Source of the DNA: Deltaproteobacteria bacterium
GTDB lineage: Bacteria; Desulfobacterota; Dissulfuribacteria; Dissulfuribacterales; QOAL01
Length of the DNA: 39,783 bases
Direction: 5' to 3'
NCBI GenBank assembly: GCA_026995935.1
Contig: JALWNK010000051.1
Location: 1 to 39,783 of the forward strand
Part shown: positions 8,844-34,340 of the stretch, in pieces
Position numbering within the stretch: position 1 is the first letter of the stretch
How the letters are laid out: each line of letters starts with the position of its first letter
Made by a program: the position numbers and the translations under genes
The notes under the pieces: model-generated
The model's database searches: none
What the model saw: only the letters and a program-made list of their open reading frames with translations
Told to the model about the DNA's origin: nothing

Positions 8844-10814
8844 TCAATTATCCCAAAGAAGCTCACTAAGGCCTGAAAATCTCACTGTTTGCCTTTTTAC
8901 ACATTTTTTCAGGGCATCTATTGTTCCGTAAATGATTAACTCCTTCTTGGCACGGGTTATTGCAGTATAAAGAAGTTCCCTTCCAATAAGGGGTGAGTCC
9001 TCTGGTGGCAGGATGAAGAGGACCTTTTCAAACTCTGAACCCTGGCTACGATGCACGGTTACCGCCCAGGCAGGTTCAAAGGCAGAAAGACGAGAGGGCG
9101 AAAACATCCTTGGGCCCTGCTTTGGTTCAGGGAAAAGGACCTTCATTGCTCCGTTCTCATCAGGCCAGCAAAGGCCTATATCGCCGTTAAAGAGCCTTAT
9201 AAAGTAATCGTTCTTGTTTATTATGATGGGAAGCCCCTTAAAAAGCCCCTGCCTGCCCTCGGCGCCTGCCCCTGCAATCACCCTTGACACAAAGCTGTTC
9301 ACGGCCTGAACACCAAGGCGTCCCTTTCTCACCCCGCAAAGAATTTTCATATGATTTAGCCTTTTAAGGGCCTCTTCTGTCTGGCCCTTTGAACAAAGAC
9401 CCCTTACATCCTCTCCTGCAAAATCTTCAATAAAGCCAAAGATGTCCTTTTCTTCAGGGGTTACAAGGCGTACATCTGGAAATTTATCCGATGAGACAAT
9501 TTTAAGGACGCCCTGGAGATCCCCTTCATTCACCTTGCTTGAAAGCTCGTCTATTCCGCTCCCCTTCCTGAACCTGAAGTTGTGGCTTAAAGTCACTATG
9601 CAGTCCTTGAGGGGCTGAGTTTTACCGCCGCCTTTTTCAAGGCCAGACAGGTCCTGGCCTATTTCTTTTGCAAGTGAAATAAAGTCCTTTGAATAGCAGA
9701 AGCTGCTTGCTCCTGTGCATATGTCCCTTAGTACGCATCCAGCCTCCACTGATGCCAGCTGGTTCTTGTCGCCAATCAGCACAAGGGAGGCATCTTCTTT
9801 CAACGCCTCCACCAGGTGAACCATCATAGGGAGGTCCACCATTGAGGCCTCATCAACTATTACTACCTGAAATCCAAGGGGATTTTCCCTATCGAACCTG
9901 TAGGCCCCGGGAGTTCGGCCTGCTCCTAGAAGCCTGTGAATGGTTAAGGCCTCCATTGGTATGGACTCCATGAGTTCGCCTGGAAGCCCAAGGTCAACTG
10001 CCGCCTTCCTTACAGATTCACTAAGCCTTGCTGCCGCCTTGCCAGTAGGGGCGCAAAGGGCCATCTTGACAGCCCCTTCTGACGCCCTTTGCATTACGGC
10101 CATCAAGGCTGCCACCGTCCTTGTCTTACCCGTCCCGGGCCCCCCTGAAATTACAAGAAGGCTGTGCTCAAGTCCGTTTGCAACAGCAATCTTTTGCCAG
10201 TCAGGGCTTGGGGCCTTATCCACGGGAAACAACCTGTCAAGAAGTTCAAGACCCGCATCCCTTTTTGTGAAAAAGCCGGGAGTTTTTCGCGCACGATGAA
10301 GAAGTCCCCTGGCAAGGCGGATTTCATAACTATGATACCTGCTTAGATAAAGCCTTTTTCCAGAAAAAACAAATGGCCTGTCACTTTGAGCGTTCCCTAC
10401 CAAAAAAGAGCATGAAATGGCATGAGAAAGCCTTTCTGAAAGTTGCTTCCACGGATTCAGATTTGTGCCTTTGCTTCCTTCCCTAAAAGCCCTTGACACC
10501 TCAGGAAAACATTCAAGAATCGGCTCAATATCCATATCTCCAAGAATTCCCCTTAGACCCTCCTCACTCATCTCAAGGCACGTATGCCCCTCTTGAAGAC
10601 CAAGGCCAAGGAGCATGGCAGAAAACATGGCCCACTCAACATCATTTGGTGCACTTTCTGGAAAGCTCTCCCCAGACTCGTTACTCTGCCCCGCGCTCCC
10701 CCTTATCTCCATCCTTGCTACAAACCTTGCTAGCTCAACACATGTGCGCGAAAAACTTCCTGTAACCTGGGCGTTATGAAGCGTCTCTATTAAAAGATCC
10801 GGGCTAATAGGCAT
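8844..10814 (-). CDS. recD: Exodeoxyribonuclease V alpha subunit (RecD)
   Basis: The 5'-3' helicase subunit of RecBCD, which resects double-strand breaks and degrades linear DNA. 656 residues, slightly longer than the E. coli protein. An N-terminal all-helical domain (1-190) that contacts RecC is followed by a superfamily 1 helicase: Walker A GGPGTGKT (224-231), APTGKAAARL, DEASMVD (motif II), IGDKNQLASVEAG (motif III), WAVTVHRSQGSEFEKV (motif V) and LLYTAITRAKKEL (motif VI). The start is 3 bases after the recB stop, whose ending GGGGAG acts as the ribosome site. It is last in recC-recB-recD. All helicase motifs look intact. Confidence 0.93.
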   Translation of the reverse strand: MPISPDLLIETLHNAQVTGSFSRTCVELARFVARMEIRGSAGQSNESGESFPESAPNDVEWAMFSAMLLGLGLQEGHTCLEMSEEGLRGILGDMDIEPILECFPEVSRAFREGSKGTNLNPWKQLSERLSHAISCSFLVGNAQSDRPFVFSGKRLYLSRYHSYEIRLARGLLHRARKTPGFFTKRDAGLELLDRLFPVDKAPSPDWQKIAVANGLEHSLLVISGGPGTGKTRTVAALMAVMQRASEGAVKMALCAPTGKAAARLSESVRKAAVDLGLPGELMESIPMEALTIHRLLGAGRTPGAYRFDRENPLGFQVVIVDEASMVDLPMMVHLVEALKEDASLVLIGDKNQLASVEAGCVLRDICTGASSFCYSKDFISLAKEIGQDLSGLEKGGGKTQPLKDCIVTLSHNFRFRKGSGIDELSSKVNEGDLQGVLKIVSSDKFPDVRLVTPEEKDIFGFIEDFAGEDVRGLCSKGQTEEALKRLNHMKILCGVRKGRLGVQAVNSFVSRVIAGAGAEGRQGLFKGLPIIINKNDYFIRLFNGDIGLCWPDENGAMKVLFPEPKQGPRMFSPSRLSAFEPAWAVTVHRSQGSEFEKVLFILPPEDSPLIGRELLYTAITRAKKELIIYGTIDALKKCVKRQTVRFSGLSELLWDN

Positions 10815-10817
10815 CTC

Positions 10818-13800
10818 TTACTCCCCTTTTGGCGTAACGACTTCTGACTCTTGTCTAAAGAGCCAAGTGTATCTTTTTTTAAGCTCCGTTGGAGAAATGA
10901 ATATCACCCCGGTCCCTTTTAAAGATTCGTCCTCACCCGTCATGCCCCTAACAAAGAGATAGAAGACGCCTCCGAAGTGTTCTTCCCTCCTATAGCCTTG
11001 TCTGAATGTTGACAGGTAGCTATCCAGTGCCCCTGCGTATAGGGCGGCCTGGAGCCAGTAGTTGTGCTGATCCATTGCCCTTTCAAGGTTTTTTCGCACA
11101 TAATCTTCATGGGAAAGCCCCAGCCAGTTGGTCTTGTAATCAAGGAGATAAAAACGGTCATTGTATTCAAAGACTAGGTCAATATAGCCCTTTATAACGC
11201 CCTTTTTTAGTTCAAGCCCTGAAACCGTTACACTTTCCCAGAACTCTTCACCACATGCCCAGTGAAAGTCCATTTCCTTGACAATCTTTTTAGGGTCAAG
11301 CAGGTTGAGCCTTAGCCCTGGCTCAAGCTCTGAGGAGACCACCTTGTTCACCATGTCCGCAAGTACATTTGCCCATGAAGGGTCAATGTCATACTGGTTG
11401 AGGGCCTTTTCCGCCTCTTTTTTAAAATCATGGAGGCTACCCCTAAAATCAACTTCCTCAAATATCTTGTGAACACAGCTTCCTGCCTCAGGCCCCCTGG
11501 GAAAGGCAGCCATGCCGCTGGCCTCGGAAAAAAGATCCAGGCTTTCATGAAGCGTAATAGGCTCAAGGTCCTCTCCAGTTGTTGATGAAAGGCCTGTAAA
11601 GCTCGTTCTTCCCCAGCTCTGCTTTACAAGGGGACAGGAGGAAATCTTTGGAAGATCCACGCGGCCAAGGCGCCCTCTTACAAGACGTACCCTTTTGGCA
11701 TCTCTTGCCACCTCTTCAATATCCCTTCTCCAAAGGATTTTAAAGCCCTTTTCCCTGGGAAAAAGCCTTTCAAGATGGGCCCTTAGGAATGCACCCTTAT
11801 CTTCCGCTGGTTCTGACTCTTTTTCGACACTGCCTGAAAAGGTCTCCTGTTCCTTACACCATATCTTGAGATTCTGGACATATTGTGCATGGGTCAGAAT
11901 GGTGTTTTTTACTATTTCTGGAAGTTCCTTACTGGCAACCTCCTTAAAAACCTTACCTTTTTCAACAAGGCCCCTTCCAGGCTTTATACCCTTTGGACAA
12001 TCATCTCCAAGGCCTTCCTTAATCCCTGCAAGCAACAGGTCCCAGATTATGGAGCCTGAGGAATCCTCCGCAAACAGGCCAACAAACATCTTGCACTTGG
12101 CCCTTGTAAGGGCGACGTATGCCAGGCGCACCTCTTCTGCCCGTGCCTGTGACAGGGCAAACTGTTCTTCCTCCTGACTCAAAACGAATCTTGCGCGCCC
12201 GTCCCTGCCCTGCCTGTCAAAGACAAAGGAGGCAGGGGAGACGGGAAGGACGTATGCGTCCCTTTTGCTGCTGTAAAATCTAGAGAGGGAATCGCACTTG
12301 ATGCCCAGTTCCCCAATGTAGGGCAGAAAGACAATGGGAAATTCAAGGCCCTTACTCATGTGGTAGGTCATTACCTTTACAAGATTTTCGTCTGTCTCAA
12401 GCCTAAGCCTCTTTTCATCCTGATCAAAGCCAGGATCATCAATGGCCTTTTTAAGCCACAAAAGGAGCCTTGAAGGGCCTGGATGCGCCCTTTCTGCATC
12501 GGAAAGAAGCTCGGCCAGCTGACGAAGGTTTGTAAGTCTCCTTTGGCCATCACTCAGGGAAAGAAGCCTCCTTGGAACCTCAAAGCGGTAAAAGAAGGCC
12601 CTAAGCGCAACCATTATTCCCTTTTTGTTCCAAAGCTGCCTAAGCTCAAGAAAGGAATTTACAATGCCCTCCCACCTCTCTTCGTCCCTTTGGACCCTTA
12701 GAAGGCCCTCTGCGTCATAACCCATGACCGTTGTACAAAGGGCAGTGGAAACCGCCTGTTGGCTAAAGGGGGAAATAAGCGCATTTAAGATGTAAAGAAG
12801 CTCCCTTGCCTCTGTGGATTCAAATATATTTGATGGCCCATAGTAAATGGAGTATATGCCAAGGTCGTAGAGGGCGTCTCGAACCTTGCCAGCCTGGTAG
12901 TGGGACCTTACAAGCACTGCAATATCGCCTGCCTCAACCGCTTTTCTCTCTCCTTGAGGCCCCTCCATCACCAGGCGTCCTTCCTGGGAAAGGCTTAAAA
13001 GGCTTGCTATCTTGCTGGCTGTCACCCTGGCAGGATCGATTTCTTCCTGGTTATCATCTCTTACTTCCTTGGAAAGGGCACTCTCTTCCTGAATTTGAGC
13101 GTCAAGGCCACCAACCCAAAACTCAATGCCTACATCAGGCCACGCGTGGCTCTTGGAACCTGCCCCATGGCTGTCAAGCAACTTGAGCCTCCAGTTGTTC
13201 TCCTCCCTTGCCCTTACAGGCAAAAAATCTATGCCCTCAAGGACAAATGGATTTTCAGCCTGAGAGAAAATGGTGTTTACACCCTCAACAAGGGGGGGAG
13301 ACGAACGCCAGTTGGTGTCAAGGTCCCATCGAGAGGACTCCCTGGTCTTCTCTTTTGCCTTTAAATAAGTGAATATGTCTGCGCCCCTGAAACCGTAGAT
13401 GGCCTGCTTTGGATCCCCTATTAGAAACAGTCGGGACCTTTCTGAGTCGTCATATATGCTGCTAAATATCTCCCACTGAATGGCGTCCGTGTCCTGAAAC
13501 TCATCTATCATGGCCACCTTGTAGCGCATGCTTAGAAGGCGGCAAAGCCTTTTGCCTCCCGGCCCTGTAAGGCTTTTGTGCACCATCTTCAGCATGTCAT
13601 CGTAGGAAATAGCCCCTATTTCCCTCTTCTTTTGTTCAAAATAGGTCCTTGAAAATTCCCTTAGCTCATAAAGCAAACAAGAAACAAGCCTTTCCCTTAT
13701 GCCAAAGTGATTTAAGAGAGGGAAATAGCCCTCCAAAAGACCGCTGATCCTTTCCCTCACCTCATGTGAAATCTCTTGCCCGGAACCATCACAAAGCCAG

Positions 13801-14894
13801 CATCTAACGGCTTCCTTAAAGAGGTTGTAAGAAGCATGGTCAATCGGAAGTTTTCCGCGAAGCCTTTTCCCTGGTTTAAGGCTTGACCGTTTTATGAGCT
13901 TTTCAAAAAGCCTTTCTCTAAGCCAGATCTTTCTTGGAAGTGTCTCCCTTAAAGCACAGGCAAAAAAAACCGAGTTTGAAGCAGACTCAAATAGGCGAAT
14001 TTCTGGAAGGGTCCTTGAAATGAGGTCATCAAAGGCCTCCCACTCTTTTTTCACCCACGTGCTTATCCACTTCTTAGAATTGGTCTTGATCTTTTCTTGA
14101 AGCCCTTTTTCTAGGTGGTCAGTCAGCTCAGCCAGCAAATCTTGAAGGATAAGCCTTGTCTCTTTCTTAAGTGCCTTTCCAATTTGCCCTGAAACCCGCC
14201 TTGCCTCCTTCTGTTTCTTTTTGAATAGAGCGTACTCCTTTCTTATGGAGTCCAAATCCACCTTGGGCAGGATAACCGGTTCAGGAAGCCTCAAGAGCTC
14301 CTCCAATTTGTCAAAAAGAAACTGTGCTGGATCCCTTGTGCTAAGGACGTCTATTAAAACGGAAAGAAAATCTTCTTCCAGGCGGGAGACTTTTGAACGC
14401 AGAAACTCTCTGCAGGCAGGAAGGTAGAGCTCCTCCTCCATTACCACATCCTTTGGCTCACCTCCTGCCTTGGCCTCAAAGGAAAACTCCCTAAGTACCC
14501 TTTGGCAAAAACCGTGGATGGTAAAGACCGCTGCCTGATCCATTCCAAGAAGGGCAAGCCTTAGCCGCCTCTTTGCCTCATCCTCCCCAACCTTTTTGAC
14601 TGCATGTTCCACCACGGCCCTTAGCACTTCATCGGGCTGTTGATCAGGGTCTTTAAGGGTCGAGCCTAAGTATCCAAGGGCATCCTCGAGTCTTTTTCGT
14701 ATCTTTGCCCGAAGCTCCTCGGTTGCGGCATTGGTGAAAGTGACAACCAATATATCTTCGGGCATAAGCGCCTCTTCCATTACCAGGCGAAGGTAGATGC
14801 CTGTAATGGTGAAGGTCTTTCCAGTGCCGGCACTTGCCTCAATCAGGCTGTAGCCAGAAAGTTTAAGCCTGGTGAGATCCTTAAGGGGTTTCAT
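10818..14894 (-). CDS. recB: Exodeoxyribonuclease V beta subunit (RecB)
   Basis: The 3'-5' helicase and nuclease subunit of RecBCD. With the ATG at 14894 it has 1358 residues, longer than E. coli RecB (1180). UvrD-type helicase motifs: EASAGTGKTFTI (19-30), VVTFTNAATEELR, AMIDEFQDTDAIQWEIF, LIGDPKQAIYGFRGAD, VMTYHMSKGLEFPIVFLP and LAYVALTRAK. The C-terminal nuclease domain has GYIDLVFEYNDRFYLLDYKTN (D1252, K1254), the metal-binding core of the RecB nuclease. ATG 14894 overlaps the recC stop as ATGA, with GGGGAGAGCAGG upstream, and is preferred to an in-frame start 27 bases earlier. The motor and nuclease residues appear complete. Confidence 0.94.
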   Translation of the reverse strand: MKPLKDLTRLKLSGYSLIEASAGTGKTFTITGIYLRLVMEEALMPEDILVVTFTNAATEELRAKIRKRLEDALGYLGSTLKDPDQQPDEVLRAVVEHAVKKVGEDEAKRRLRLALLGMDQAAVFTIHGFCQRVLREFSFEAKAGGEPKDVVMEEELYLPACREFLRSKVSRLEEDFLSVLIDVLSTRDPAQFLFDKLEELLRLPEPVILPKVDLDSIRKEYALFKKKQKEARRVSGQIGKALKKETRLILQDLLAELTDHLEKGLQEKIKTNSKKWISTWVKKEWEAFDDLISRTLPEIRLFESASNSVFFACALRETLPRKIWLRERLFEKLIKRSSLKPGKRLRGKLPIDHASYNLFKEAVRCWLCDGSGQEISHEVRERISGLLEGYFPLLNHFGIRERLVSCLLYELREFSRTYFEQKKREIGAISYDDMLKMVHKSLTGPGGKRLCRLLSMRYKVAMIDEFQDTDAIQWEIFSSIYDDSERSRLFLIGDPKQAIYGFRGADIFTYLKAKEKTRESSRWDLDTNWRSSPPLVEGVNTIFSQAENPFVLEGIDFLPVRAREENNWRLKLLDSHGAGSKSHAWPDVGIEFWVGGLDAQIQEESALSKEVRDDNQEEIDPARVTASKIASLLSLSQEGRLVMEGPQGERKAVEAGDIAVLVRSHYQAGKVRDALYDLGIYSIYYGPSNIFESTEARELLYILNALISPFSQQAVSTALCTTVMGYDAEGLLRVQRDEERWEGIVNSFLELRQLWNKKGIMVALRAFFYRFEVPRRLLSLSDGQRRLTNLRQLAELLSDAERAHPGPSRLLLWLKKAIDDPGFDQDEKRLRLETDENLVKVMTYHMSKGLEFPIVFLPYIGELGIKCDSLSRFYSSKRDAYVLPVSPASFVFDRQGRDGRARFVLSQEEEQFALSQARAEEVRLAYVALTRAKCKMFVGLFAEDSSGSIIWDLLLAGIKEGLGDDCPKGIKPGRGLVEKGKVFKEVASKELPEIVKNTILTHAQYVQNLKIWCKEQETFSGSVEKESEPAEDKGAFLRAHLERLFPREKGFKILWRRDIEEVARDAKRVRLVRGRLGRVDLPKISSCPLVKQSWGRTSFTGLSSTTGEDLEPITLHESLDLFSEASGMAAFPRGPEAGSCVHKIFEEVDFRGSLHDFKKEAEKALNQYDIDPSWANVLADMVNKVVSSELEPGLRLNLLDPKKIVKEMDFHWACGEEFWESVTVSGLELKKGVIKGYIDLVFEYNDRFYLLDYKTNWLGLSHEDYVRKNLERAMDQHNYWLQAALYAGALDSYLSTFRQGYRREEHFGGVFYLFVRGMTGEDESLKGTGVIFISPTELKKRYTWLFRQESEVVTPKGE

Positions 14895-17800
14895 CCTGCT
14901 CTCCCCTTGGCCATTGCCCAAAACATTGGCGCACAGACCTTAAGACTTGCCTCTACAAACCGGTTATCCCTAAGAAGATGCTTTGGAATCCTTGTTTTTC
15001 CCCTGGTCAGATAAAGCAACCATGGGTCCCTGTATTTGCTCCCGAACCTCTCTGCATTTTCCACATCTCGTAAAATCCTTTTTATTGCATCTGCAATATC
15101 ATCCTCGCCTGCATCATTAGCACCCACAGGGCTCCACCTTTCCACCTCAGCCTTCTTGGGTTTGGGTTGAAGAGATTTTGCAAGCCGGTAAGAAACCTTA
15201 GGCCAGAAGGGAACAAGGCCTTTTTTCCCGTTGAGGAAAAGCTCAAGGAGGTTCCTTGAAAAGTCCCTTGCATACTCAAAAGGGACTGGGATAAATACGG
15301 CATCCTTTTGGGCAGTTGAAAAAACACCTTGGCCAACCTCCTGGCCGCCACTTGATGCGCACCAAAGAAGATGCCTTACCCAGAAACATATCTTCATGCC
15401 CTCAGACATGGCTGGCCTTAGTTCAAAAAGCCCCCCATCTGCCTTTTTCTTTCCTGCACTGCCGCGTACGCGTACTTGAAAGGGCGATTCCTCTCCGTTC
15501 ATGTCAAAGGTTAAGTCCACACCTGCCTGCCCCTCAGGGCAAAAGTCCCTGCCAAGACGTCCCAGAAGTGGCAAAAGCTCCCTTTCCACCTTCTCATTCC
15601 ATATTGCCCTTGCAAGAGCATTATCCGGAAGCAGCCCCTCCAGGGTAAGCTTGAAAAAGAGCCGGTCAAAAAAGGTGGTGTCAATACTTTCCCCTGCCCC
15701 AAGGGCCTCTGCCATTTTCTCAAGCATCCGTATTTCACTGAAATAATCGAGGCTGTAGGATTCATGATCATCCAGGGCTTCCTCCCCCACGTCCACATTT
15801 ATGGAAAGAAGGTTTTTCATGAAAAATTTTAGCGGATGCCCCAGAAAGGAGATGAGCTCATCCATAGTTAAATGGTGGACAAGGGCCTGTTCTTCATCAA
15901 GGAGATGGCCGAGGTCCGAGGGCCATTTAGCCACAGGCTTTACTGGTGAAGGACTGATGACTTTGCCATGCTCATCAATTGGAAGCCACTCCCTGGCGTA
16001 GGTAACAAGCTTTTCATCCCTGGCCTCAAGATAACCCTGGCCAAAGGGCTGAAGGGGATGCTGAGTTATAAGGTCTTCCCGTATCACCTCTCTGCCAGTA
16101 CGCGACAACGCTCTTGTAAGGCTGTCAACAAGTTCTGTCACCACAGTTGAAGGATCAAGCTCCTGGTTGTCGTTTTCGCGTCTTCCGATATAGGTGATTA
16201 TCAAACGATCCCTGACAGACATGAGGGTTTCAAGGAAAAGATATCTGTCTTCGTCGCGTCTTATGCGGTCTCCAGGTCTTGGGTGTCTTGCCATGAGGTC
16301 ATAGGCAGGGCGTGCAGACTGTCGGGGAAAGTCTCCCTGGTTCATTCCAAGAAGACATATCACCCTGAAGGGCAAGGCCCTTAGGGGAACAAGGCTAGAA
16401 AAGAGCACCTTTCCGGAGATGAAGGTTGAACGCGAGGGCGGGGAAGAAAAACGGTCCCTAATGGATGCAAGAGCCGCCTCAAAGGGCACAGAGTCAACCC
16501 CTGTCAGGGAGATGTCTTCAAAAAGCCCTTCAAGGGGGTAAATAAGCTCCTCTCTAAGCTCAGCGCTCCAGTCCTCCTCCTGGGCAAGAAACTCACCTAT
16601 GGCCCCTTTGAACAGGTCGAGCCAGCCCCTTGGTGACATCCCTTTGTCTCCTGGCTCAAGGAGCCTGGCTCTTAAACGCTCAAGACCAAAGACAAAGGCT
16701 GAAAGGGTGGCTAAGTGGCCTAGGCCTTCGCCCTCAATGGGCCTTTCAAGGGGCTTTACCTGGTAGCCAGGGGTAATCTCTGTTATTTCGTGGCCATCCA
16801 TTATGCCAGTCAACATGAGCCTGTCCAGGCCAAAGAGCCACGTGTTGGTCTGGCACCTTGTGCCATCTGAAAGGGTCCTTATGCCGCGCCTTATGCCACT
16901 TTTTCTAACCCACTGCCTTATGGAAAAAAGGCCGTCTCCATCAAGATCAAGGCGCCTTGAGACAACAGGATCTCCCAAAAGGTCAACAACCTCTGGGGCC
17001 GTGAACTCACCTGTGGCAACACTAAGAAGAGACAAAAAAGCACTCACCCAAGGAGAAGACCTTTCAAGGCCAATGTCTGAAATGGTGAATGGAATTCTTC
17101 GTTCCTCAGGGGCCTGGCCAAAGACTGCCTCCACAATATCTGCATAAAGGGAAATGTCGGGTGCCATGACTGCCACATGATGGGGCTCAAGGGTCTTATC
17201 CTTCAAAAAGGCGTCAACCAGCCTGTCATGAAGTACTTCCACCTCCCTGATTCTGCTGTGACAGCTATGTATCTCAATGGAGTCGTCCACGCTCAGGGCC
17301 ACACCTTCCCCGTCTCCATCACCTGAAACCTCTTCAAGCTCCTTCATTTCAAGAACAGAGGTCTGAAGGGCATTTAGAAGGCTTTTATTGCCAGGTTCTA
17401 CTGCCAGCTCCTCACCTTTTGCAAAATCAAGCCCGTAAAACCCCATCAAGAACTGGCGCCCAGCAAGGCCCAAAGAGGCCAATAGCCTGTTTCCAACAGG
17501 AAAGAGTCTGTCGAGAGTTTCCTGGTCGTAATGGCGCTCAAGGCCAAGCCTCTTTCTCTCGGGAACTATGTCCAGCCAGTACTCCCTGCATGCAGAAAGG
17601 TGGTAGAACTGCACCTGACAGATGCTTGAAAGGGCATGAAGAACCTCCATGTGAAGGGGAGGCATATAGGAGACGCCAAATACGTAAAGGGTCTTTGGCA
17701 AGGCGTCAAGAATATCCCCTATCCCCTGAATGGTTCTGCCCCCTGTGCCTGTATCCGCATAACTTTTATCACTTTGCTCCATAAGGGCCTTTGCAAGACG

Positions 17801-18397
17801 TACCATGTAGCCTGCCTTGAACCTCTCCCCTGCCCTTTCACAAAGAAGCCGCCAAAGCCCTGCCTGCCACCTTGTCTCGCTTTCTTTAAAGGCACTCGAA
17901 GAGCGCGCCTCTTCCCACTCCTTGAGCATGTCGTAGCGGTAGTTCAGGTACCTGTCAAAGACATCTGCAAGCTGCCCTGAAAGCTCGTAAAGTCCTGATG
18001 GCCCAAATCGCCTTGCATAATCAAGAAGTTCGTCAAGGCCTGACTCTTTCACGAAATAATCACTGCCTGAATCAAGTTCATGTAACAGGCCGAATACGAG
18101 CCACCTGAGCCTTTGGCGACCAATGGCTTCCTGTTGTCCAGACGAAAGATCATGAGACCTTAGCCACCCTGAAAGCTCGTAAACATAAGAGCCAAGGAGC
18201 CTGAAACGCAGATTTGCACACACCCCTTTCGTTTCTGCCAACTTTATGGCAAGCCACTGGGCCATCTCGTAGTTGTTTACGAGAATGACATCCGGGCGGA
18301 AGGAAAACCGCCTCCTTTTTGCGGCCACAAGCTCTGCAGCAAGACGCTCTGCCAGGGCTTCAAGCCTGTTTGATTGAAATAATGTCAGGCCTTTCAT
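14891..18397 (-). CDS. recC: Exodeoxyribonuclease V gamma subunit (RecC)
   Basis: The scaffold and Chi-scanning subunit of RecBCD, which has a dead helicase fold. 1168 residues against 1122 in E. coli. It starts LTLFQSNRLEALAERLAAEL, the typical RecC opening, then VILVNNYEMAQWLAIKLAE and CANLRFRLLGSYVYEL. Further landmarks are IEIHSCHSRIREVEVLHDRL (about 370-390), HHVAVMAPDISLYADIVEAVF and LPFRVICLLGMNQGDFPRQSARPAYDLM. The Walker A lysine is absent, as in other RecC proteins. First gene of recC-recB-recD; there is no ptrA between recC and recB as in E. coli. No strong promoter is evident upstream. Which Chi sequence it reads cannot be told from here. Confidence 0.92.
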   Translation of the reverse strand: MKGLTLFQSNRLEALAERLAAELVAAKRRRFSFRPDVILVNNYEMAQWLAIKLAETKGVCANLRFRLLGSYVYELSGWLRSHDLSSGQQEAIGRQRLRWLVFGLLHELDSGSDYFVKESGLDELLDYARRFGPSGLYELSGQLADVFDRYLNYRYDMLKEWEEARSSSAFKESETRWQAGLWRLLCERAGERFKAGYMVRLAKALMEQSDKSYADTGTGGRTIQGIGDILDALPKTLYVFGVSYMPPLHMEVLHALSSICQVQFYHLSACREYWLDIVPERKRLGLERHYDQETLDRLFPVGNRLLASLGLAGRQFLMGFYGLDFAKGEELAVEPGNKSLLNALQTSVLEMKELEEVSGDGDGEGVALSVDDSIEIHSCHSRIREVEVLHDRLVDAFLKDKTLEPHHVAVMAPDISLYADIVEAVFGQAPEERRIPFTISDIGLERSSPWVSAFLSLLSVATGEFTAPEVVDLLGDPVVSRRLDLDGDGLFSIRQWVRKSGIRRGIRTLSDGTRCQTNTWLFGLDRLMLTGIMDGHEITEITPGYQVKPLERPIEGEGLGHLATLSAFVFGLERLRARLLEPGDKGMSPRGWLDLFKGAIGEFLAQEEDWSAELREELIYPLEGLFEDISLTGVDSVPFEAALASIRDRFSSPPSRSTFISGKVLFSSLVPLRALPFRVICLLGMNQGDFPRQSARPAYDLMARHPRPGDRIRRDEDRYLFLETLMSVRDRLIITYIGRRENDNQELDPSTVVTELVDSLTRALSRTGREVIREDLITQHPLQPFGQGYLEARDEKLVTYAREWLPIDEHGKVISPSPVKPVAKWPSDLGHLLDEEQALVHHLTMDELISFLGHPLKFFMKNLLSINVDVGEEALDDHESYSLDYFSEIRMLEKMAEALGAGESIDTTFFDRLFFKLTLEGLLPDNALARAIWNEKVERELLPLLGRLGRDFCPEGQAGVDLTFDMNGEESPFQVRVRGSAGKKKADGGLFELRPAMSEGMKICFWVRHLLWCASSGGQEVGQGVFSTAQKDAVFIPVPFEYARDFSRNLLELFLNGKKGLVPFWPKVSYRLAKSLQPKPKKAEVERWSPVGANDAGEDDIADAIKRILRDVENAERFGSKYRDPWLLYLTRGKTRIPKHLLRDNRFVEASLKVCAPMFWAMAKGRAG

Positions 18398-20864: not shown

Positions 20865-20906
20865 AAACGCAGAGTATGCTCTTTGAGAAACGGAAAGGAA
20901 TCTGAC

Positions 20907-23477
20907 ATGAAGGAAATGGTGAAATCTGTGGCTGTAGAGGCGAAGGAGAGAAAACTTAAAAGTTTCTGGCTTTTCCTCGTTCTTATTTTGTTTGTGCCGG
21001 TCATGGCCCGGGCGGTGATGCTTGACCGGGAGGGCATCAAGGTGGAATCTCTCATAACGGATACCAGCGTGGAATTTGTCGGGCATACTTTTACGCGAGG
21101 CTCATCCACCCGGACCTATCTTTTCGAGTTTCACGGCACCTACAAGGAATTCTGGGACGGAAAACTGGGCAAGACTTTTCCGGTTAACACCAAGGAAAAA
21201 GTGACCTGGAACAGGAAGTCACACCTGTTGTCCGTACATGCGGAAGAAAAAGGATTTTATTTTGATACCGTTTATCAATGCGATATGGACCCTCTTCTAT
21301 CCGTAGACGCGCCACAATGCACACAGACTTCCCATAAAACCAACTGGAAAGGGGATTGGAGCGTGGCATGGGGTGACAGCAGAACGGAGATCGAGCAATT
21401 ACGAGACGGCATTCCCACCGGACGACGTTTCGCACTGACCCTGGAGGCCCTTGCCAAATCCATGAAGGTAGAGGTGTCCAGCAGCAAGGTCAAAAGCCCT
21501 CCGGGCAATGTCCTGCTGACGGTTCACACCGACCCCACTGTGCTGCCTCCCAAGGGATGGCCCGTAACGTTTTGGATTGAGAAAAAATACGGCGGCGTGA
21601 GGTTTAATGATCTCTATGGGAAAGAGGTGGATAACCATCACCATGCCACCCAGCTTAGGGGGAGCACATTTTATCTCCTTCGAAACCTGCAGGCCGGGCA
21701 ATATACCTTCTGGAGCATAATGAATACGACCCTGACCGGGAATCCAATTGCATCCAAAAACCAAGTCATATTCAAGGTAGTCAATGATCTATACACTCCG
21801 GTCATCCTTGTCCCTAAAGAGGGTGCCAAGCTCGGGAAAAAGAGTAAGATAACCGTCCGGGTCGCTGGTGAATCTTCTAATTCTGATATCGAGGACGCAA
21901 GACTCGAGGTTCAATACAGCAAACTCGCAAAGCAGTATCCGTATAAGAAACTCCGGGTGATAAAGTCAGGGAAGGCCCCCTTTTGGCCTGGGGGCGTCTG
22001 GGAATGTTCGTGCCCCATTGGCAACAAGCTTGGGGTCCCTCTCGAGGGGGATTTCCGCATCCGGGCGCGCATGTATTACCAAGACAAGCCCATGGGAGAC
22101 TGGAGTGAGTGGCGGCACTTTCACGTGGGGAAAGAGGTTGTGGCGATTATCGAACGGCCCTTCAAAATTATCTCCCCCGCCGAAGGCCAAATCTACAGCA
22201 ACGAAATCCCGGTGAATATCTCCCTGCCGGGCTTCGTAGGGGAGAATCCACGCCTGACCCTGACCTGGATATGGACCCCCGCCACTAAAAAGGCATCTAA
22301 CGGCCTGGATATCCATGGATTTCCCCATGAACTCATGAAGAAAACCGTGTCCGTCGCCTCCGGCAAGATGGCCCTGCTGACTTACCATGGATCCATGAAG
22401 GTGAAAAGTCTGTACGATAAGGTCAAAAAGGTCATGGGGGGTTCGGCAGGCGGGGGATCTTTCAGTTTACGGGCAGACCTGAAATTCTCCGACTTGCCGC
22501 TCAGGTCCCGTTACGTGACATTTTATGCGGGGATGCTGGGGACGCCCGTGAAAAAGGATGAGGAGAAGAAAAAGGACCTCTCCTATCACATGAATATCAT
22601 GCCGCAGTTCATTTCCATGAATTTTTTTTATCGACCAGGGGAGGATATCAGGGTGCGGCTGCGGAACGCGCCGCGAAACAGGGTCAAATTCGAAGTGCGC
22701 TATCGATCCCCAAAGGGCAAAAGCTTTGCACTGCTGCCCCGGATTCCACACCACTTTACCACAGTTGGAGACACAACTGTCTTGCACCTAAAATTCAAAG
22801 AACCAGGACGGTACCAGATCCGGTTTAAATACGGGGACAGGGCGCGCTGGTGTCCCTGGCGGGGTTTTACTGTTGTTGGAACGAGTCTTAAGGCCGCGAA
22901 CGAAAAAAAGAATCCGAGCCGAATCCAGCCGAAGACACATCTTTCACCTCCTAAAATCGCAGTTCCCATAAAACGCCAGACCTTTGTAAGGACTGAAAGG
23001 ACGGTAAAGGTCAACACTAAGATCCGACATGCCACAGGCTATAAAGTTGCCATGAATGAAAAGAAGAATCTGAGCCGAATTCGGCCGAAGATACATCTTT
23101 CACCTCCTAAAATCGTGGCCCCCTGGGAACACCAGACCTTTATCTTGACGGGAGAGATGGTAAAGGTCAACACCAAGATCCAACACGCTACAGGCTATAA
23201 AGTTGCCATGGAGGTGCAGATTGGAAACCATGGGAGATTCAGCGCCTTCCATCCGCAGATAATCCGACATTCGGGCAAAACGGAAACCAATATGGAAATG
23301 AGTTTGACAAAGACGGGAACATACCGCATTCGGGTAAAACTGGTCGGCGTTTCAAATGCTGCCTGGAGCCCGTGGCGGAGCTTCAAGGTGGACAAGCTTG
23401 CCAAGGCACCGATTCGCAAGACTGCGCCGAAGCCATCTTCCTTAAAGAAGATACGCATGAATCCCACAGGTATTTAA
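20907..23477 (+). CDS. Large exported protein with repeated beta-sandwich modules, unknown function
   Basis: 856 residues from ATG 20907, chosen because AAAGGAA lies about 10 bases upstream; a TTG 24 bases earlier is in frame but has no site. Residues about 19-42 (LKSFWLFLVLILFVPVMARA) form a signal sequence or signal anchor after a basic start. Three segments end alike: FRIRARMYYQ..WSEWRHFHVG, YQIRFKYGDRARWCPWRGFTVVG and YRIRVKLVGVSNAAWSPWRSFKVDK. This points to repeated Ig/fibronectin-like modules. Near the C-terminus a 52-residue unit starting NEKKN and ending HATGYKVAM occurs twice in tandem. No catalytic motif is seen; an adhesive or structural envelope role is inference. A rho-independent terminator follows. 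Confidence 0.8.
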   Translation: MKEMVKSVAVEAKERKLKSFWLFLVLILFVPVMARAVMLDREGIKVESLITDTSVEFVGHTFTRGSSTRTYLFEFHGTYKEFWDGKLGKTFPVNTKEKVTWNRKSHLLSVHAEEKGFYFDTVYQCDMDPLLSVDAPQCTQTSHKTNWKGDWSVAWGDSRTEIEQLRDGIPTGRRFALTLEALAKSMKVEVSSSKVKSPPGNVLLTVHTDPTVLPPKGWPVTFWIEKKYGGVRFNDLYGKEVDNHHHATQLRGSTFYLLRNLQAGQYTFWSIMNTTLTGNPIASKNQVIFKVVNDLYTPVILVPKEGAKLGKKSKITVRVAGESSNSDIEDARLEVQYSKLAKQYPYKKLRVIKSGKAPFWPGGVWECSCPIGNKLGVPLEGDFRIRARMYYQDKPMGDWSEWRHFHVGKEVVAIIERPFKIISPAEGQIYSNEIPVNISLPGFVGENPRLTLTWIWTPATKKASNGLDIHGFPHELMKKTVSVASGKMALLTYHGSMKVKSLYDKVKKVMGGSAGGGSFSLRADLKFSDLPLRSRYVTFYAGMLGTPVKKDEEKKKDLSYHMNIMPQFISMNFFYRPGEDIRVRLRNAPRNRVKFEVRYRSPKGKSFALLPRIPHHFTTVGDTTVLHLKFKEPGRYQIRFKYGDRARWCPWRGFTVVGTSLKAANEKKNPSRIQPKTHLSPPKIAVPIKRQTFVRTERTVKVNTKIRHATGYKVAMNEKKNLSRIRPKIHLSPPKIVAPWEHQTFILTGEMVKVNTKIQHATGYKVAMEVQIGNHGRFSAFHPQIIRHSGKTETNMEMSLTKTGTYRIRVKLVGVSNAAWSPWRSFKVDKLAKAPIRKTAPKPSSLKKIRMNPTGI
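22899..23210 (+). repeat. 156-bp in-frame tandem duplication
   Basis: Two adjacent units, 22899-23054 and 23055-23210, each of 156 bases (52 codons), encode NEKKN.SRI.PK.HLSPPKI and later VKVNTKI.HATGYKVAM. The DNA copies are similar but clearly diverged, mostly in the middle third. The exact length and shared frame indicate duplication inside the gene. Confidence 0.9.
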
Positions 23478-25245: not shown

Positions 25246-25440
25246 GAATCCAAGCGGCGCAAGCCTTTTGAAGACCTCGGTTATCATAGGCTGGAATGCA
25301 ATCAGTATATAGTGAAATAAGGCTATTATGTCCTGATCTGCCCTTCTTAAACCCTGAAAGTTCATCAGCGAGAAATCCTCTCTAATCTTACGTTCAATGA
25401 TGAACCAACCATGTACACAATAAAATCTAACAAAAGCAGT
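25246..25440 (-). pseudogene. Probable remnant of a DDE transposase C-terminus
   Basis: On the minus strand an open stretch reads FVRFYCVHGWFIIERKIRED, then FSLMNFQGLRRADQDIIALF and HYILIAFQ. The pattern W-IE-x(4)-K-x-x-x-DF-x-L-x-x-F-x-G-x(8)-L-x-x-L resembles the region after the catalytic Glu in IS4/IS701-like transposases (typically WxIExFFKxxKxDFGLxxFxGR). The rest of the transposase is absent, and no initiation site fits. Upstream codons overlap the start of the 25498 gene. I call it a decayed fragment, not a gene; a chance resemblance is possible. Confidence 0.35.
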
Positions 25441-25497
25441 CTTGACAATGGGAGCCACCTTATTAATTGTGCCTTTAAAGGGATTTGGAGGACTGTC

Positions 25498-27321
25498 GTG
25501 AAACAATGCCGTTTTCTAAACCAAATCTTTTTCCATTTTGCCTTTGTCTTAATGTTTCTATTTTCCTTTTTATTAAGGGATTGCCTTGCCATTTCAGATG
25601 GGGATTATCTTTCAGTCAGTCAGCCAGGCATGAAGCTTGAACTGGCTGGTGGGGACTATGACTATTGGATAGAAACCCCGGAAAAGATAGTTGATCTTCA
25701 GACAGGAAGCTATGAGATAAGGGGAAAATACATATATTTTCATCCGAGTGCCAGTGATATTGGTGACTTAAGGCCTTCAAGGGCTGAGATCATTGATAAA
25801 TGTAGTATCAAATGGGGGAAGGCGGGAATCTTTAGAATGAAGGGATGCGCTCGTTCAAGCGCATCCCCTATGGTTTCAGCACCATCAGTGAGTCCCCAAA
25901 AGGCCAGATCCTTTACTTTAAAAGAAAAAAATGCCTTCCCTAAAAAATGGAGGGTTTTAAAGAAAAAGGTATTTGAGATTTATGTGCCAGATGGTTGCAA
26001 GATCAGGGAAGATACAAAAAATTCTGGGGTTTCTCTTTATTTTAATGGTGGTGAGGCCTGGATAGGGGCAATGCCCAAAAATTCGTGGCAGTTACAGAAT
26101 AAGGCCACAGCAGGATGTAACTTGGAAGGGGCCTTTCAGAAAGGAAGCACTAGCCTTTTCATATGCAGTCCGGATTCAGATGTAAGGCTGGTTCAGCTCG
26201 TTGAAAAAAGCGATAAAAACCCAATTGCAAGTTTTGTTCGGGCAAGGGATTTTTCTACCTTCAAGGCCCTTTCTATTGCCATTTCGTCTATTAAATTCTC
26301 TGGTAAAAAAGGACCTTCTGGCCAAGGTGCCATTTCATTAAATTTTACAAAATGGACTCCACAGGATGGCAGTTTTCAAATTGATATACCAAAGGGCTGG
26401 AGAGCAAGCGGAGGCACTGCGGATTTTGGTGTAAATGGTTATATCAGAATAGTCCAGGTACTTTCACTGGATCAAAACACGGGTTTTCTGGGTGTGTATT
26501 ATCCATTTTACCAGTATGCCCAGACGGTATATGGCTCAAATGGCATTCCACCTCAAGATGCATTGAGTTATGTGAGAAGCAGGTTCTTTAGTGACCTGAG
26601 AAACAATTACAAGATAGAATTTCCCAATCTGCACTTTGATTCGCTTGGCATTGATCAGGCACTTTCACAACGTTTTACTAACCAATGTGAGGCGAATGCT
26701 GCCCGGTACGGCACTAAGTGCACCTCACAAGTGGTGGAAGGGAAGGGATCGTTTCTTAGAAATGGGAGAGAATTTGATATATGGGTTGGGGGCGTAATGG
26801 AATACAATACCATGCCGCTACAGGGCCTGGGTTATCAACATAGATGGGGGCCTGCCCCAATTTATGTGGAGGTTGCCCCAAAGGGTGAGTTTCCTAAATG
26901 GGTAAAGGCCTTTGAGCACATGGCAGAAACCTGGCAACCCAACATGCAGTGGCTTTCAGGCCATTTCAGAAAAGCGGCTGCTGAACAAAGAAGCATAATC
27001 CAACACTACAGGCGCATGTCCAGCATGATACACAAGAATGCTGAAAGGCGTATGAACCAGGGAATGATGGAACACGAGGCGGAAGAAAACGAAAGGATGG
27101 AAGAATTTTATGATACCTTCTACGCCCTTGGAGGCGAAGAGCGTTATGACAATCCTGCTACCGGAGAAGAGATAGACGTCCCGATTGGTGCAGACAAATA
27201 TTTATATGATAACTATTCTCAGACCTGGGTTGGCGTCCGGCAAGATGTCCAGGGCAGTGAGGATCTCATTCAGGCCCTTAAGGAAAAAGGATTTGTGGAG
27301 CTTAGACTTCACCAACATTGA
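25498..27321 (+). CDS. Exported protein of unknown function, 607 aa
   Basis: GTG 25498 is chosen because GGAGG lies 7 bases upstream and because it begins a clean signal peptide: a basic start KQCR, then QIFFHFAFVLMFLFSFLLRDCLA. An in-frame ATG 87 bases earlier would bury that signal. TTGACA at 25442 with an AT-rich -10 region could start transcription just upstream. The mature protein has a beta-rich N-terminal part (about 32-125), a middle domain containing two similar segments (VFEIYVPDGCKIREDTKN and GSFQIDIPKGWRASGGTADF) and a Met/Glu/Arg-rich helical stretch (HYRRMSSMIHKNAERRMNQG). It ends with YDNPATGEEIDVPIGADKYL and a short strand region. I recognise no named family. Periplasmic or surface location is likely. 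It converges on the GH13 gene with a 15-base gap. Confidence 0.8.
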   Translation: MKQCRFLNQIFFHFAFVLMFLFSFLLRDCLAISDGDYLSVSQPGMKLELAGGDYDYWIETPEKIVDLQTGSYEIRGKYIYFHPSASDIGDLRPSRAEIIDKCSIKWGKAGIFRMKGCARSSASPMVSAPSVSPQKARSFTLKEKNAFPKKWRVLKKKVFEIYVPDGCKIREDTKNSGVSLYFNGGEAWIGAMPKNSWQLQNKATAGCNLEGAFQKGSTSLFICSPDSDVRLVQLVEKSDKNPIASFVRARDFSTFKALSIAISSIKFSGKKGPSGQGAISLNFTKWTPQDGSFQIDIPKGWRASGGTADFGVNGYIRIVQVLSLDQNTGFLGVYYPFYQYAQTVYGSNGIPPQDALSYVRSRFFSDLRNNYKIEFPNLHFDSLGIDQALSQRFTNQCEANAARYGTKCTSQVVEGKGSFLRNGREFDIWVGGVMEYNTMPLQGLGYQHRWGPAPIYVEVAPKGEFPKWVKAFEHMAETWQPNMQWLSGHFRKAAAEQRSIIQHYRRMSSMIHKNAERRMNQGMMEHEAEENERMEEFYDTFYALGGEERYDNPATGEEIDVPIGADKYLYDNYSQTWVGVRQDVQGSEDLIQALKEKGFVELRLHQH

Positions 27322-31846: not shown

Positions 31847-33487
31847 ATGAAAAAACTATTCTTCTTTCTCTTCCTTGTTTTTTTCATCATTATTTTCAAT
31901 GCCATGCCCTCCTGGGCAGAGCTAGATATGGTGCAGCTTGCCCAGACCCACTCAGACGATGAATTCTTCACAGTGGCCCTTGGCGATGACTACGCCTTTT
32001 GGAGTCACTATTCAAAGGGCATCTACGTATGGGACACATCAAATCCCATAAATGCCGGGCAAAAGATATCTGGGGACGACAAGGTCACGGTCCTTTCCGC
32101 CTCTGGACGAAGGCTTGCCTGGATAGATGACAGTGACGACATACAGGTGTGGGACGGCACATCCATCCATGAAAAGGAGGACGACGTTGTCGACACCATA
32201 TCCCTTTACGGCGACAATATTGCCTTTGTTGAGGAGGACACTGAAAATTTCCTCCACAAGGATACAGAGATATTCCTGAGAATACCGGGAGACAAGATCC
32301 AGATATCGGACAACGACTACGACGACAAGCAGCCCTCTCTTTTCGGCCAGAGCGTTGCGTGGGTGGGGGCACATGACGGCGATAACTTTGATCTTTTCTA
32401 CTGGGACGGAAAAAACGAATACAAGCTTACGGATTCTGATGGAGATGACCTTAACCCCAGCCTTGATAACGGTGCCATTGCCTGGACAGAAGATGATGGT
32501 GATGACTTTGAGATTTTATACTGGAGTGGTGGCGCAAACATACAGATTACAGACGACGACGCAGACGATATCTCTCCTGTTCTTCGTTCTGGAAGGATAG
32601 TTTGGATCAAAAAGGACGGCTCATGCAGCGACATATACATGTGGGACGGCTCTCAAACAAAGAGACTAACTGACAGATGCTATGACAACATAAACTCACT
32701 GGACTTTAACGGACATGCCCTCCTTTGGGCTGCCAGGGAAGGCTCTGAAAGGGGGGTCTACTATGCGAAGCTTCCTGAAACCTCCCGTAAGTTCACTGGC
32801 TGGTGGTATGACCCAAATGAACCAGGAACAGGTGTTGCCACTGAAATAAAGGAAGACAAGATATTCCTTACCTGGTTCACCTATAATGAGGCAGGAAAAA
32901 GCACCTGGTACTCGGCAGGTGGCTTCATGTCCAGCCGGAGCGGCTTTACAGGAAGCCTTTACAAATGGACGGGCTGGCCCTGGGGAAGCGCCTATTCGCC
33001 TCCTGTGCCGGAGATAGTGGGCACAATTGTTGTGGTGTTGAACGAGTTTCCCTCTGAGTCCATTACCTTTACGGCAACCATTGGCAGTACCGTTATAACC
33101 AAGACCTTCAAGCCCTTCATGGAGGATTTTGCACCTGGCCCTGAAGACTCTCGCCATCTTACAGGCTGGTGGTACGATCCATCCTACGACGGCATGGGCT
33201 TTTTCATTGATGCAAGGGGAGGCAGAATGGCCATGGTCTGGTACAATTACAGGGACGACGGAAGTGCCAGATGGTGGACCTCTGACGGTATCTTCCCCAA
33301 CGGCTCTTCTACTTACAGTGACGAATTTGACGGGTGGCAGGGAGGCCAATGTCCTGGCTGCCCCTACAAACCCCCAAAATTAAATGCTGGAGAAGGCGGG
33401 GCAGTGACCATAACCTTTTCTGACGCCTTTCATGCAACTGCCAGCATGGGTACAACAACCCTTCACCTTGAAAGATTTGACTTTTAG
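31847..33487 (+). CDS. Exported Asp-rich beta-propeller with two C-terminal WWDP-type domains
   Basis: 546 residues from ATG 31847, chosen for TGGAGGAAGC upstream and because it opens a signal peptide (1-24, ending PSWA). Residues about 35-310 are TolB-like propeller repeats of roughly 45 residues, each with a strand such as VAWVG or IAWTEDD, then FYWDGK and an acidic loop: DNDYDDKQPSL, DSDGDDLNPSL, DDDADDISPVL. The loops may bind calcium. Two copies of a second domain follow: TGWWYDPNEPGTGVATEI (from 317) and TGWWYDPSYDGMGFFIDA (from 438). Each continues into a W[FY].Y....[SG].[TR]W[YW] strand. The same domain makes up the whole next gene. Location is periplasmic or extracellular; no enzyme motif is seen. 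Confidence 0.85.
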   Translation: MKKLFFFLFLVFFIIIFNAMPSWAELDMVQLAQTHSDDEFFTVALGDDYAFWSHYSKGIYVWDTSNPINAGQKISGDDKVTVLSASGRRLAWIDDSDDIQVWDGTSIHEKEDDVVDTISLYGDNIAFVEEDTENFLHKDTEIFLRIPGDKIQISDNDYDDKQPSLFGQSVAWVGAHDGDNFDLFYWDGKNEYKLTDSDGDDLNPSLDNGAIAWTEDDGDDFEILYWSGGANIQITDDDADDISPVLRSGRIVWIKKDGSCSDIYMWDGSQTKRLTDRCYDNINSLDFNGHALLWAAREGSERGVYYAKLPETSRKFTGWWYDPNEPGTGVATEIKEDKIFLTWFTYNEAGKSTWYSAGGFMSSRSGFTGSLYKWTGWPWGSAYSPPVPEIVGTIVVVLNEFPSESITFTATIGSTVITKTFKPFMEDFAPGPEDSRHLTGWWYDPSYDGMGFFIDARGGRMAMVWYNYRDDGSARWWTSDGIFPNGSSTYSDEFDGWQGGQCPGCPYKPPKLNAGEGGAVTITFSDAFHATASMGTTTLHLERFDF

Positions 33488-33542
33488 ATACCTAAGTCCG
33501 ATGAGCAGTTAAGAGAAAGGTGAAGAACAAGAGGATAACACA

Positions 33543-34340
33543 ATGAAAAGATTTGCACTGATTATTGTCCTTTTTTTGCTAACAAGCGTAGGCCCTGTAA
33601 TGGCAGAGGATTTTAGCGGAATGTGGTGGGACACAAACAGGCCTGGATCAGGTATATACATTGACTACAATGATAATGGCGCAGGTATCTGCGGCTCCTG
33701 GTACCTTTACGATGACAGGGGAAACCCTCAGTGGTTCACCTTCATGGGCAGAGCAGAAAACAATGTCTTTCAGGCAGAGCTTTACCAATTCACAGGTCCA
33801 TCCATGGGCCAGACCTGGGACGAATCCTATATACGAAGCGACACAGTTGGCAATATAACCATTAACTTTTCAAAATCAGACAGTCTCTCCGTATCCTACG
33901 AAATAGAACGTACAACTGGAACATTGAACCTTACAAGGTTTTCAAACGAAAACTGCCGAGGCTCCCTGTGGTGGGATCCAAACAAGCCTGGACAGGGGGT
34001 CGCCCATTTCCATTTCAACGGTTCATCTGGCGAGGACCTCACCGGCATCGTCTGGTACGTTTACGATTCAAACGGGGATCCCATCTGGTACACAGGGGTG
34101 GGAGGCCCAGATGCAACCACCTTTGACGCACTGATGTTTACCGGCCCTGCCTTTGGAGAACCGTGGGATGCATCACTGGTAAAAAGCACCAAGGCCGGAA
34201 CCATTACTGCCAATTTCGACCTCAATTCCCTTAAAAGCAGTTCCATGCCAAGGATTGACATGGGCTTTAACATTGGAGGAATAACGGGCAACCTGAACCT
34301 TGAGCCCTTTACATGCCCTGTGGCGGTGCCCAAAAGGTAG
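33543..34340 (+). CDS. Exported protein made of two WWDP-type domains
   Basis: 265 residues with a signal peptide (1-21, ending VMA) and GAGAAAGG upstream of ATG 33543. The mature protein is two copies of one module: FSGMWWDTNRPGSGIYIDYN (from 24) and RGSLWWDPNKPGQGVAHFHF (from 139). Each is followed by GSWYLYDDRGNPQWFTFMG or GIVWYVYDSNGDPIWYTGVG, then an acquired-loop segment with FTGP..G..WD and a late GTLNL or GNLNL strand. The module is the one found twice at the end of the preceding gene, 55 bases upstream, so the pair likely acts together. Similar Trp-rich repeats are known in exported proteobacterial proteins with no defined function, to my knowledge. Confidence 0.83.
   Translation: MKRFALIIVLFLLTSVGPVMAEDFSGMWWDTNRPGSGIYIDYNDNGAGICGSWYLYDDRGNPQWFTFMGRAENNVFQAELYQFTGPSMGQTWDESYIRSDTVGNITINFSKSDSLSVSYEIERTTGTLNLTRFSNENCRGSLWWDPNKPGQGVAHFHFNGSSGEDLTGIVWYVYDSNGDPIWYTGVGGPDATTFDALMFTGPAFGEPWDASLVKSTKAGTITANFDLNSLKSSSMPRIDMGFNIGGITGNLNLEPFTCPVAVPKR

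Follow-up and report, generated by a model that had tools for sequence, protein, structure and literature searches.

Two neighbouring genes carry a tandem pair of Trp-rich WWDP domains, a predicted double-barrel module joined to diverse secreted proteins

Two adjacent genes in the window (the whole 39,783-nucleotide stretch of deltaproteobacterial DNA that was analysed) encode four copies of a Trp-rich domain, referred to here as WWDP, and these are best explained as two instances of one tandem-pair unit. The fold and the modular use of this pair are well supported. Our preferred reading, to which we assign a probability of about 0.45, is that the pair acts as a mobile double-barrel binding tag, which would tether secreted cargo to an extracellular target.

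Results

Two adjacent genes with four domain copies

The product of gene A (31847..33487, plus strand, 546 aa) is an exported protein in which a beta-propeller precedes two WWDP barrels, as judged from its open reading frame, a propeller match and the domain HMMs. The start at 31847, given by the sequence-only reading, is an ATG preceded by GGAGGAAGC; the ORF listing begins the frame further upstream, at a TTG (31730). A signal peptide, MKKLFFFLFLVFFIIIFNAMPSWA (31847..31918, plus strand), is obvious from the sequence, with a cleavage site placed by eye. The propeller (31919..32779, plus strand) is followed by the first barrel, domain A1 (32786..33133, plus strand; HMM 7.8e-50), and the second, domain A2 (33152..33484, plus strand; HMM 5.5e-42). 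Gene B (33543..34340, plus strand, 265 aa) is an open reading frame located 55 nt past gene A, and encodes a stand-alone exported WWDP pair: an equally obvious signal peptide, MKRFALIIVLFLLTSVGPVMA (33543..33605, plus strand; cleavage site again placed by eye), then domains B1 (33609..33956, plus strand; HMM 6.6e-49) and B2 (33957..34313, plus strand; HMM 3.6e-42). Each of these four copies is a row of the model that scored it. An OmpA-domain gene lies directly upstream of gene A.

The sequence-only reading of this DNA had described four homologous copies in adjacent genes and had placed them correctly. All six Smith-Waterman pairings of the copies beat 1000 shuffles each, with z values of 7.7 to 32.4 and a local identity of about 25-38%. 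The literal string WWDP occurs only in the second copy of gene B (1/4); WWYDP appears twice in gene A, and WWDT in the first copy of gene B. The shared core is made of an invariant Trp within G-x-W, two Gly about 7-9 residues on, and one further Trp; the columns invariant in the 22 copies of the genome are W7, G14, G16 and W41. The second barrel of gene A also contains a QCPGC motif (33347..33361, plus strand). Both Cys are found in 17 of 51 aligned pairs, never a single one, and might form a disulfide.

The gene A propeller

The AlphaFold2 model of full gene A (12 sequences) reached a pLDDT of 83.2 and a pTM of 0.66, the propeller part being better than the pair part. In VIA-align, mature residues 1-288 of this model matched propellers with Z scores of about 21-24; the top match was 2gop (Z 23.8, residues 13-288). 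We counted about seven blades from the strands of the model. Asp and Glu make up 21% of the propeller part, so that the Asp-rich propeller proposed from the sequence is borne out. The propeller resembles the TIGR04275 family (beta_prop_Msarc) through three weak repeat matches (E 7.8e-5), but with 22.3 bits against a curated cut-off of 85 it is not a member.

Calcium dependence had been proposed from the acidic loops. Calcium-binding propellers of the FG-GAP/VCBS type carry the blade loop D-x-[DN]-x-[DN]-G-x-x-[DE]. This motif has no match anywhere in gene A, which contains only looser acidic strings (DDSDD, DNDYD, DSDGD and DDDAD). In the alignment, an acidic TD[ST]DGDD loop is kept in all seven rows of gene A type, which counts in favour of the proposal, but the loop at the same position is less acidic in all five propeller-Fn3 rows. 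A calcium-dependent propeller was therefore not retained as an identification. The sequences give calcium dependence no support, although gene A may still prove to depend on the metal, given the loop shared by all seven rows of its type.

Search for a known family

Scans of Pfam, NCBIfam, PHROGs and PDB gave no significant match to the WWDP region of genes A and B, and a profile search against PDB chains gave none for the pair. Assignment to a known domain family was thus rejected; in Pfam, NCBIfam and PDB no characterised family with a known role was found, and it is such a family that would have spoken against the sequence-only reading. Among the best 25 of 26 Pfam families matched by the 51 pairs at E<=10, no family has a calycin name and the AttH-like family (DUF2006, PF09410) is absent. 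Isolated weak Pfam matches of these pairs were to PF24604 PelB barrel (one member, 2.7e-4) and Cerato-platanin (five members, best 0.0022). The NCBIfam motif NF053582 (motif_MiiA) matched 5/51 pairs at E<=0.1 (best 9e-5); the matches that could be located covered 13-18 residues at no more than 20.5 bits, against a curated cut-off of 24 bits, and 17 genomes scanned gave none above it. Membership of the MiiA motif was set aside, these being short sub-threshold stretches only. Literature searches with WWDP motif strings returned only unrelated HER2 peptides among the matches listed, and no title on a WWDP domain was found; this statement concerns titles.

Predicted fold and comparison with calycins

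Structure prediction was one of the checks proposed earlier. With 51 sequences, AlphaFold2 modelled the gene A pair at a pLDDT of 96.2 and a pTM of 0.91, with eight strands in each domain; the assignment of the pair as two eight-stranded barrels is thus a prediction of high confidence. Strand 1 corresponds to residues 9-12 and 131-134, and a short helix precedes strand 1 of the first barrel.

Foldseek with the pair model and a BFVD search both returned nothing at E<=1e-3; sliding clamps, ranked top by Foldseek with a poor TM, were dismissed as noise. In VIA-align, the first barrel accounts for nearly all of the best matches. These were a de novo barrel (Z 7.1), zebavidin (Z 6.3 over 100 aligned residues, rmsd 3.0), D-aminopeptidase 1ei5 (Z 6.0), avidins (Z about 5.4-6.2 over 96-102 residues), Pab87 2qmi (Z 5.8) and nitrophorins (5.2-5.6). 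Values below 8 may mean a common arrangement only, designed barrels score like avidins, and the second barrel is barely covered; the resemblances of the modelled barrels to solved structures are therefore of fold level only.

The calycin signature, as given in the excerpted text of PMC2954199, consists of a Trp in the first strand, an Arg/Lys in the last strand and a 3-10 helix cap. The Trp of the first-strand GxW is found in both WWDP barrels: in domain 1, G9 is kept in 51/51 and W11 in 50/51 pairs, and in domain 2, G131 in 46/51 and W133 in 50/51. The last-strand Arg/Lys is present in 34/51 first domains (missing in 17/51) and in 46/51 second domains (missing in 5/51). At sequence level, the signature thus appears largely present. 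Three other aromatics, W45, Y159 and W167, are invariant in 51/51 pairs.

We infer, with moderate confidence, that the WWDP barrels are kin of the calycins. Like avidins, lipocalins and FABPs, whose barrels are antiparallel and up-and-down, they are predicted to be eight-stranded, with a helix before strand 1, the strand-1 GxW and usually the last-strand Arg/Lys, which in calycins stacks on the Trp. In the profile searches above they showed no sequence relation to this superfamily. They also differ from it in their tandem arrangement and in being attached to secreted proteases and propellers, and its natural members reach Z scores of only 5-6. AttH-like proteins such as NE1406 (DUF2006, PF09410) also have two lipocalin-like barrels per chain by duplication (PMC2954199, in the excerpted text, as for the points that follow). 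In NE1406 the calycin signature is found in one barrel only, and in WWDP pairs the Arg/Lys is kept more often in one barrel; but those of NE1406 have more strands and a longer, flatter shape, and the source text does not describe them as a mobile module. The absence of 2ich from the VIA-align list leaves room for a likeness of AttH type.

Copies, pairing and history

A profile built from the four copies of genes A and B found 22 WWDP copies in 11 ORFs of the 2.59 Mb genome, two per ORF. Among 58 complete, distinct ORFs from this genome and the contig-scan loci, 57 hold two copies; this set excludes ORFs truncated where a contig ends, as well as L083 and L084, the phage and plasmid loci with their three single-copy ORFs, counts close relatives such as L091 and L095 separately, and has a single one-copy member (L117). 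With redundant loci included, 94/99 ORFs hold two copies. The pair ends no more than 12 aa from the C-terminus in 50 of the 57 complete two-copy ORFs, stands alone in 11/57 and is followed by more than 100 aa in 6/57. In the scan of 17 genomes, the match of some proteobacterial ORFs extends over just one half of the pair model, so that strict pairing, seen in the genome studied here and at most of the loci examined, is not a rule for all genomes.

In a tree of 127 copies, the labels of positions 1 and 2 need 6 and 4 changes, against about 42 when shuffled; the tree rests on 114 columns, which are few, and 32 of its forks stay open. Since the labels stay in register, the pair mostly travels as a unit, and the duplication is old, as had been supposed from the divergence of the copies. 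The first copy of gene A groups with other first copies and its second copy with other second copies, and those of gene B fall in a separate group of 15 rows, which makes A and B old paralogues. One WWDP protein of 314 aa (L051:5289-6230, contig C45 of the same genome) carries a (TDHD)n His/Asp-repeat linker between its barrels, and this linker looks metal-binding.

Fusion partners

A second check suggested beforehand was a search for WWDP domains fused to enzymes. Such fusions exist and most are to proteases. Pfam scans of 39 WWDP proteins, picked by us, gave matches above curated cut-offs in 26 and none in 13. The partners in the 26 comprise seven S8 subtilases, three M12B reprolysin-like metalloproteases, one C39-type peptidase, four propellers (one each of RCC1, sortilin, NHL with TIG, and lactonase-like kind), eight Fn3, one PEBP, one cytochrome c and one PPC. 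Two of the 13 unmatched proteins fall just under cut-off, L091 (LTD and reprolysin) and one on contig C32 of the genome studied here (unrelated). Within this genome, the cargo consists of the gene A propeller, a propeller with Fn3, an S8 subtilase in which HGT and GTSAAAP motifs can be seen by eye, a PPC domain and unannotated regions; the remaining WWDP ORFs encode the pair alone or nearly so. Two hydrophobicity tests for signal peptides, passed by 58/58 proteins, were discarded, as the first also passes the cytosolic CysS and ribonucleotide reductase and the second was uncontrolled.

The modularity of the pair is thus held with high confidence, and the PPC domain offers the closest comparison. 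According to the excerpted text of PMC3327674, PPC (PF04151) is an accessory domain found at the C-terminus of secreted proteases of the S8 and metallo types; protease E495 has two of them there, each of which binds protein substrates, and other roles are credited to PPC domains elsewhere. PPC belongs to a different sequence family: its profile gave no match in genes A and B at E<=1, and in the nine other proteins of the genome it matched (E<=0.1) only residues 46-119 of a 712 aa protein, outside the WWDP pair at 169-390. That protein carries the two modules side by side.

Distribution and neighbourhood

Domain matches were obtained in 12/60 genomes of the lineage (the present one included), which fall in only 2/36 genera, both in its own family, and the pair model matched 5/395 genomes of the phylum. 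One contig scan confirmed 44/83 candidate stretches, from Alpha- and Betaproteobacteria, MAGs of 'Deltaproteobacteria'/Thermodesulfobacteriota, a Desulfovibrio MAG and one Gemmatimonadota MAG. Seventeen genomes reached via 17 of the confirmed loci, and thus selected for holding WWDP, have 2-16 matches each. In a draw of the class around one of them, an Undibacterium (L097), 3/274 genomes matched, the centre included. The family thus has a patchy distribution, with expansion in those genomes that carry it.

Carriage on phages or plasmids was considered and not retained. It is represented by one weak phage record and one plasmid record, the latter obtained with the phage domain as query; gene B as query found none in plasmids, and three scans of viral contigs confirmed none. 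The phage record (Dolichospermum phage Dfl-JY45, L083:3920-5850) has two adjacent genes with one WWDP-like domain each.

Homologues of A and B are adjacent on the same strand in the window and in 6/9 further fetched genomes (G001, G002, G004, G007, G011 and G014; not G006, G008 and G016), which makes 7/12 domain-carrying genomes of the lineage, a count that covers all of the 12 but G003 and G018. Loci L109, L113 and L127 belong to G001, G007 and G011 and were not counted twice. In G011 and G014 the partner upstream of the gene B homologue has about 780 aa; that of G011 (L127) is composed of a propeller, Fn3 and the pair. At L113, a wider order is conserved: p636, p187, OmpA, A, B, MoeA, CysS and RNR, the last three labelled by eye.

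Several other features of these neighbourhoods were recorded. A gene B homologue at L047:5600-9240 is divergent beside an 815 aa protein whose best match in the window is the OmpA-domain protein. Two long ORFs in the window have no Pfam match at the thresholds used, one at 25411-27321 (636 aa, 93% identical in L113) and one at 20883-23477 (864 aa). The minus strand carries a recD-recB-recC-like cluster at 8844-18397, with Pfam matches to AAA_19/UvrD_C_2, UvrD helicase and Exonuc_V_gamma/RecC_C.

Discussion

The unit would consist of two eight-stranded beta-barrels in tandem, calycin-like and of avidin/lipocalin type, used as a mobile and usually C-terminal accessory module. As a tag, it would bring its cargo, the propeller in gene A and elsewhere S8, M12B and C39-type peptidases or other propellers, to a common extracellular target. 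We infer that this target is most likely a protein or peptide, as the enzymes joined to the pair are most often proteases; confidence in any particular ligand is low. Gene B would supply the tag in free form, produced alongside gene A, and this free tag may join the complex of A or occupy the same target. Being paired, C-terminal, promiscuous, secreted and rich in conserved aromatics, the module is most simply accounted for as a binding tag, and the substrate-binding PPC domains may serve as the closest working analogy. The partners include non-proteases, however, and placement at the C-terminus would be compatible with a role in sorting or stability as well. The sequence-only reading had seen in the two genes an exported binding system: the exported and frequently adjacent A-B pair stands, and for the binding role our confidence is moderate. 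A bolder form, in which the pair is an undescribed double-calycin receptor, the secreted proteases and propellers share one target genome-wide, and gene B is a free tag tuning access of the propeller, is a more doubtful proposal.

Other accounts of the pair were weighed against the same data. It could be a C-terminal label for sorting, secretion or anchoring, read by an export or surface-attachment machine and having no ligand beyond that machinery. The position of 50/57 complete pairs within 12 aa of the C-terminus, the presence of 2-16 matches, on unrelated cargo, in each of 17 genomes and an expansion restricted to lineages all fit such a label, but a pair without cargo (11/57 complete two-copy ORFs) or followed by more than 100 aa (6/57) does not, and we consider this account unlikely. 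An assembly or stability module, which would oligomerise or cap the cargo and need no separate ligand, is suggested by analogy with archaeal Pab87. In the excerpted text of PMC2651629, the C-terminal lipocalin domain of Pab87 is crucial for octamer formation. This Pab87/CubicO domain is likewise C-terminal in a peptidase and folds into an eight-stranded barrel; both Pab87 and D-aminopeptidase are among the VIA-align matches, and A and B could pair via their like domains. Pab87, however, has a single barrel, within one enzyme family and with a role in octamer assembly (PMC2651629, same text), whereas WWDP partners are very diverse and 11 pairs stand alone, which renders a purely structural role improbable. 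Finally, each barrel might bind a small hydrophobic molecule or cofactor inside, as lipocalins and avidins do. The calycin-like barrel and the aromatics kept in all 51 pairs (W45, Y159, W167) or in 50 of them (W11) agree with an interior ligand, but the fusion partners are not indicative of small-molecule use, and among these accounts we hold this one to be the least probable.

WWDP is an uncatalogued, paired and mobile module of secreted proteases and propellers, recovered in several bacterial classes from otherwise unannotated stretches. Defining the domain would annotate many hypothetical proteins together, and its fusions to assayable proteases make the target directly testable.
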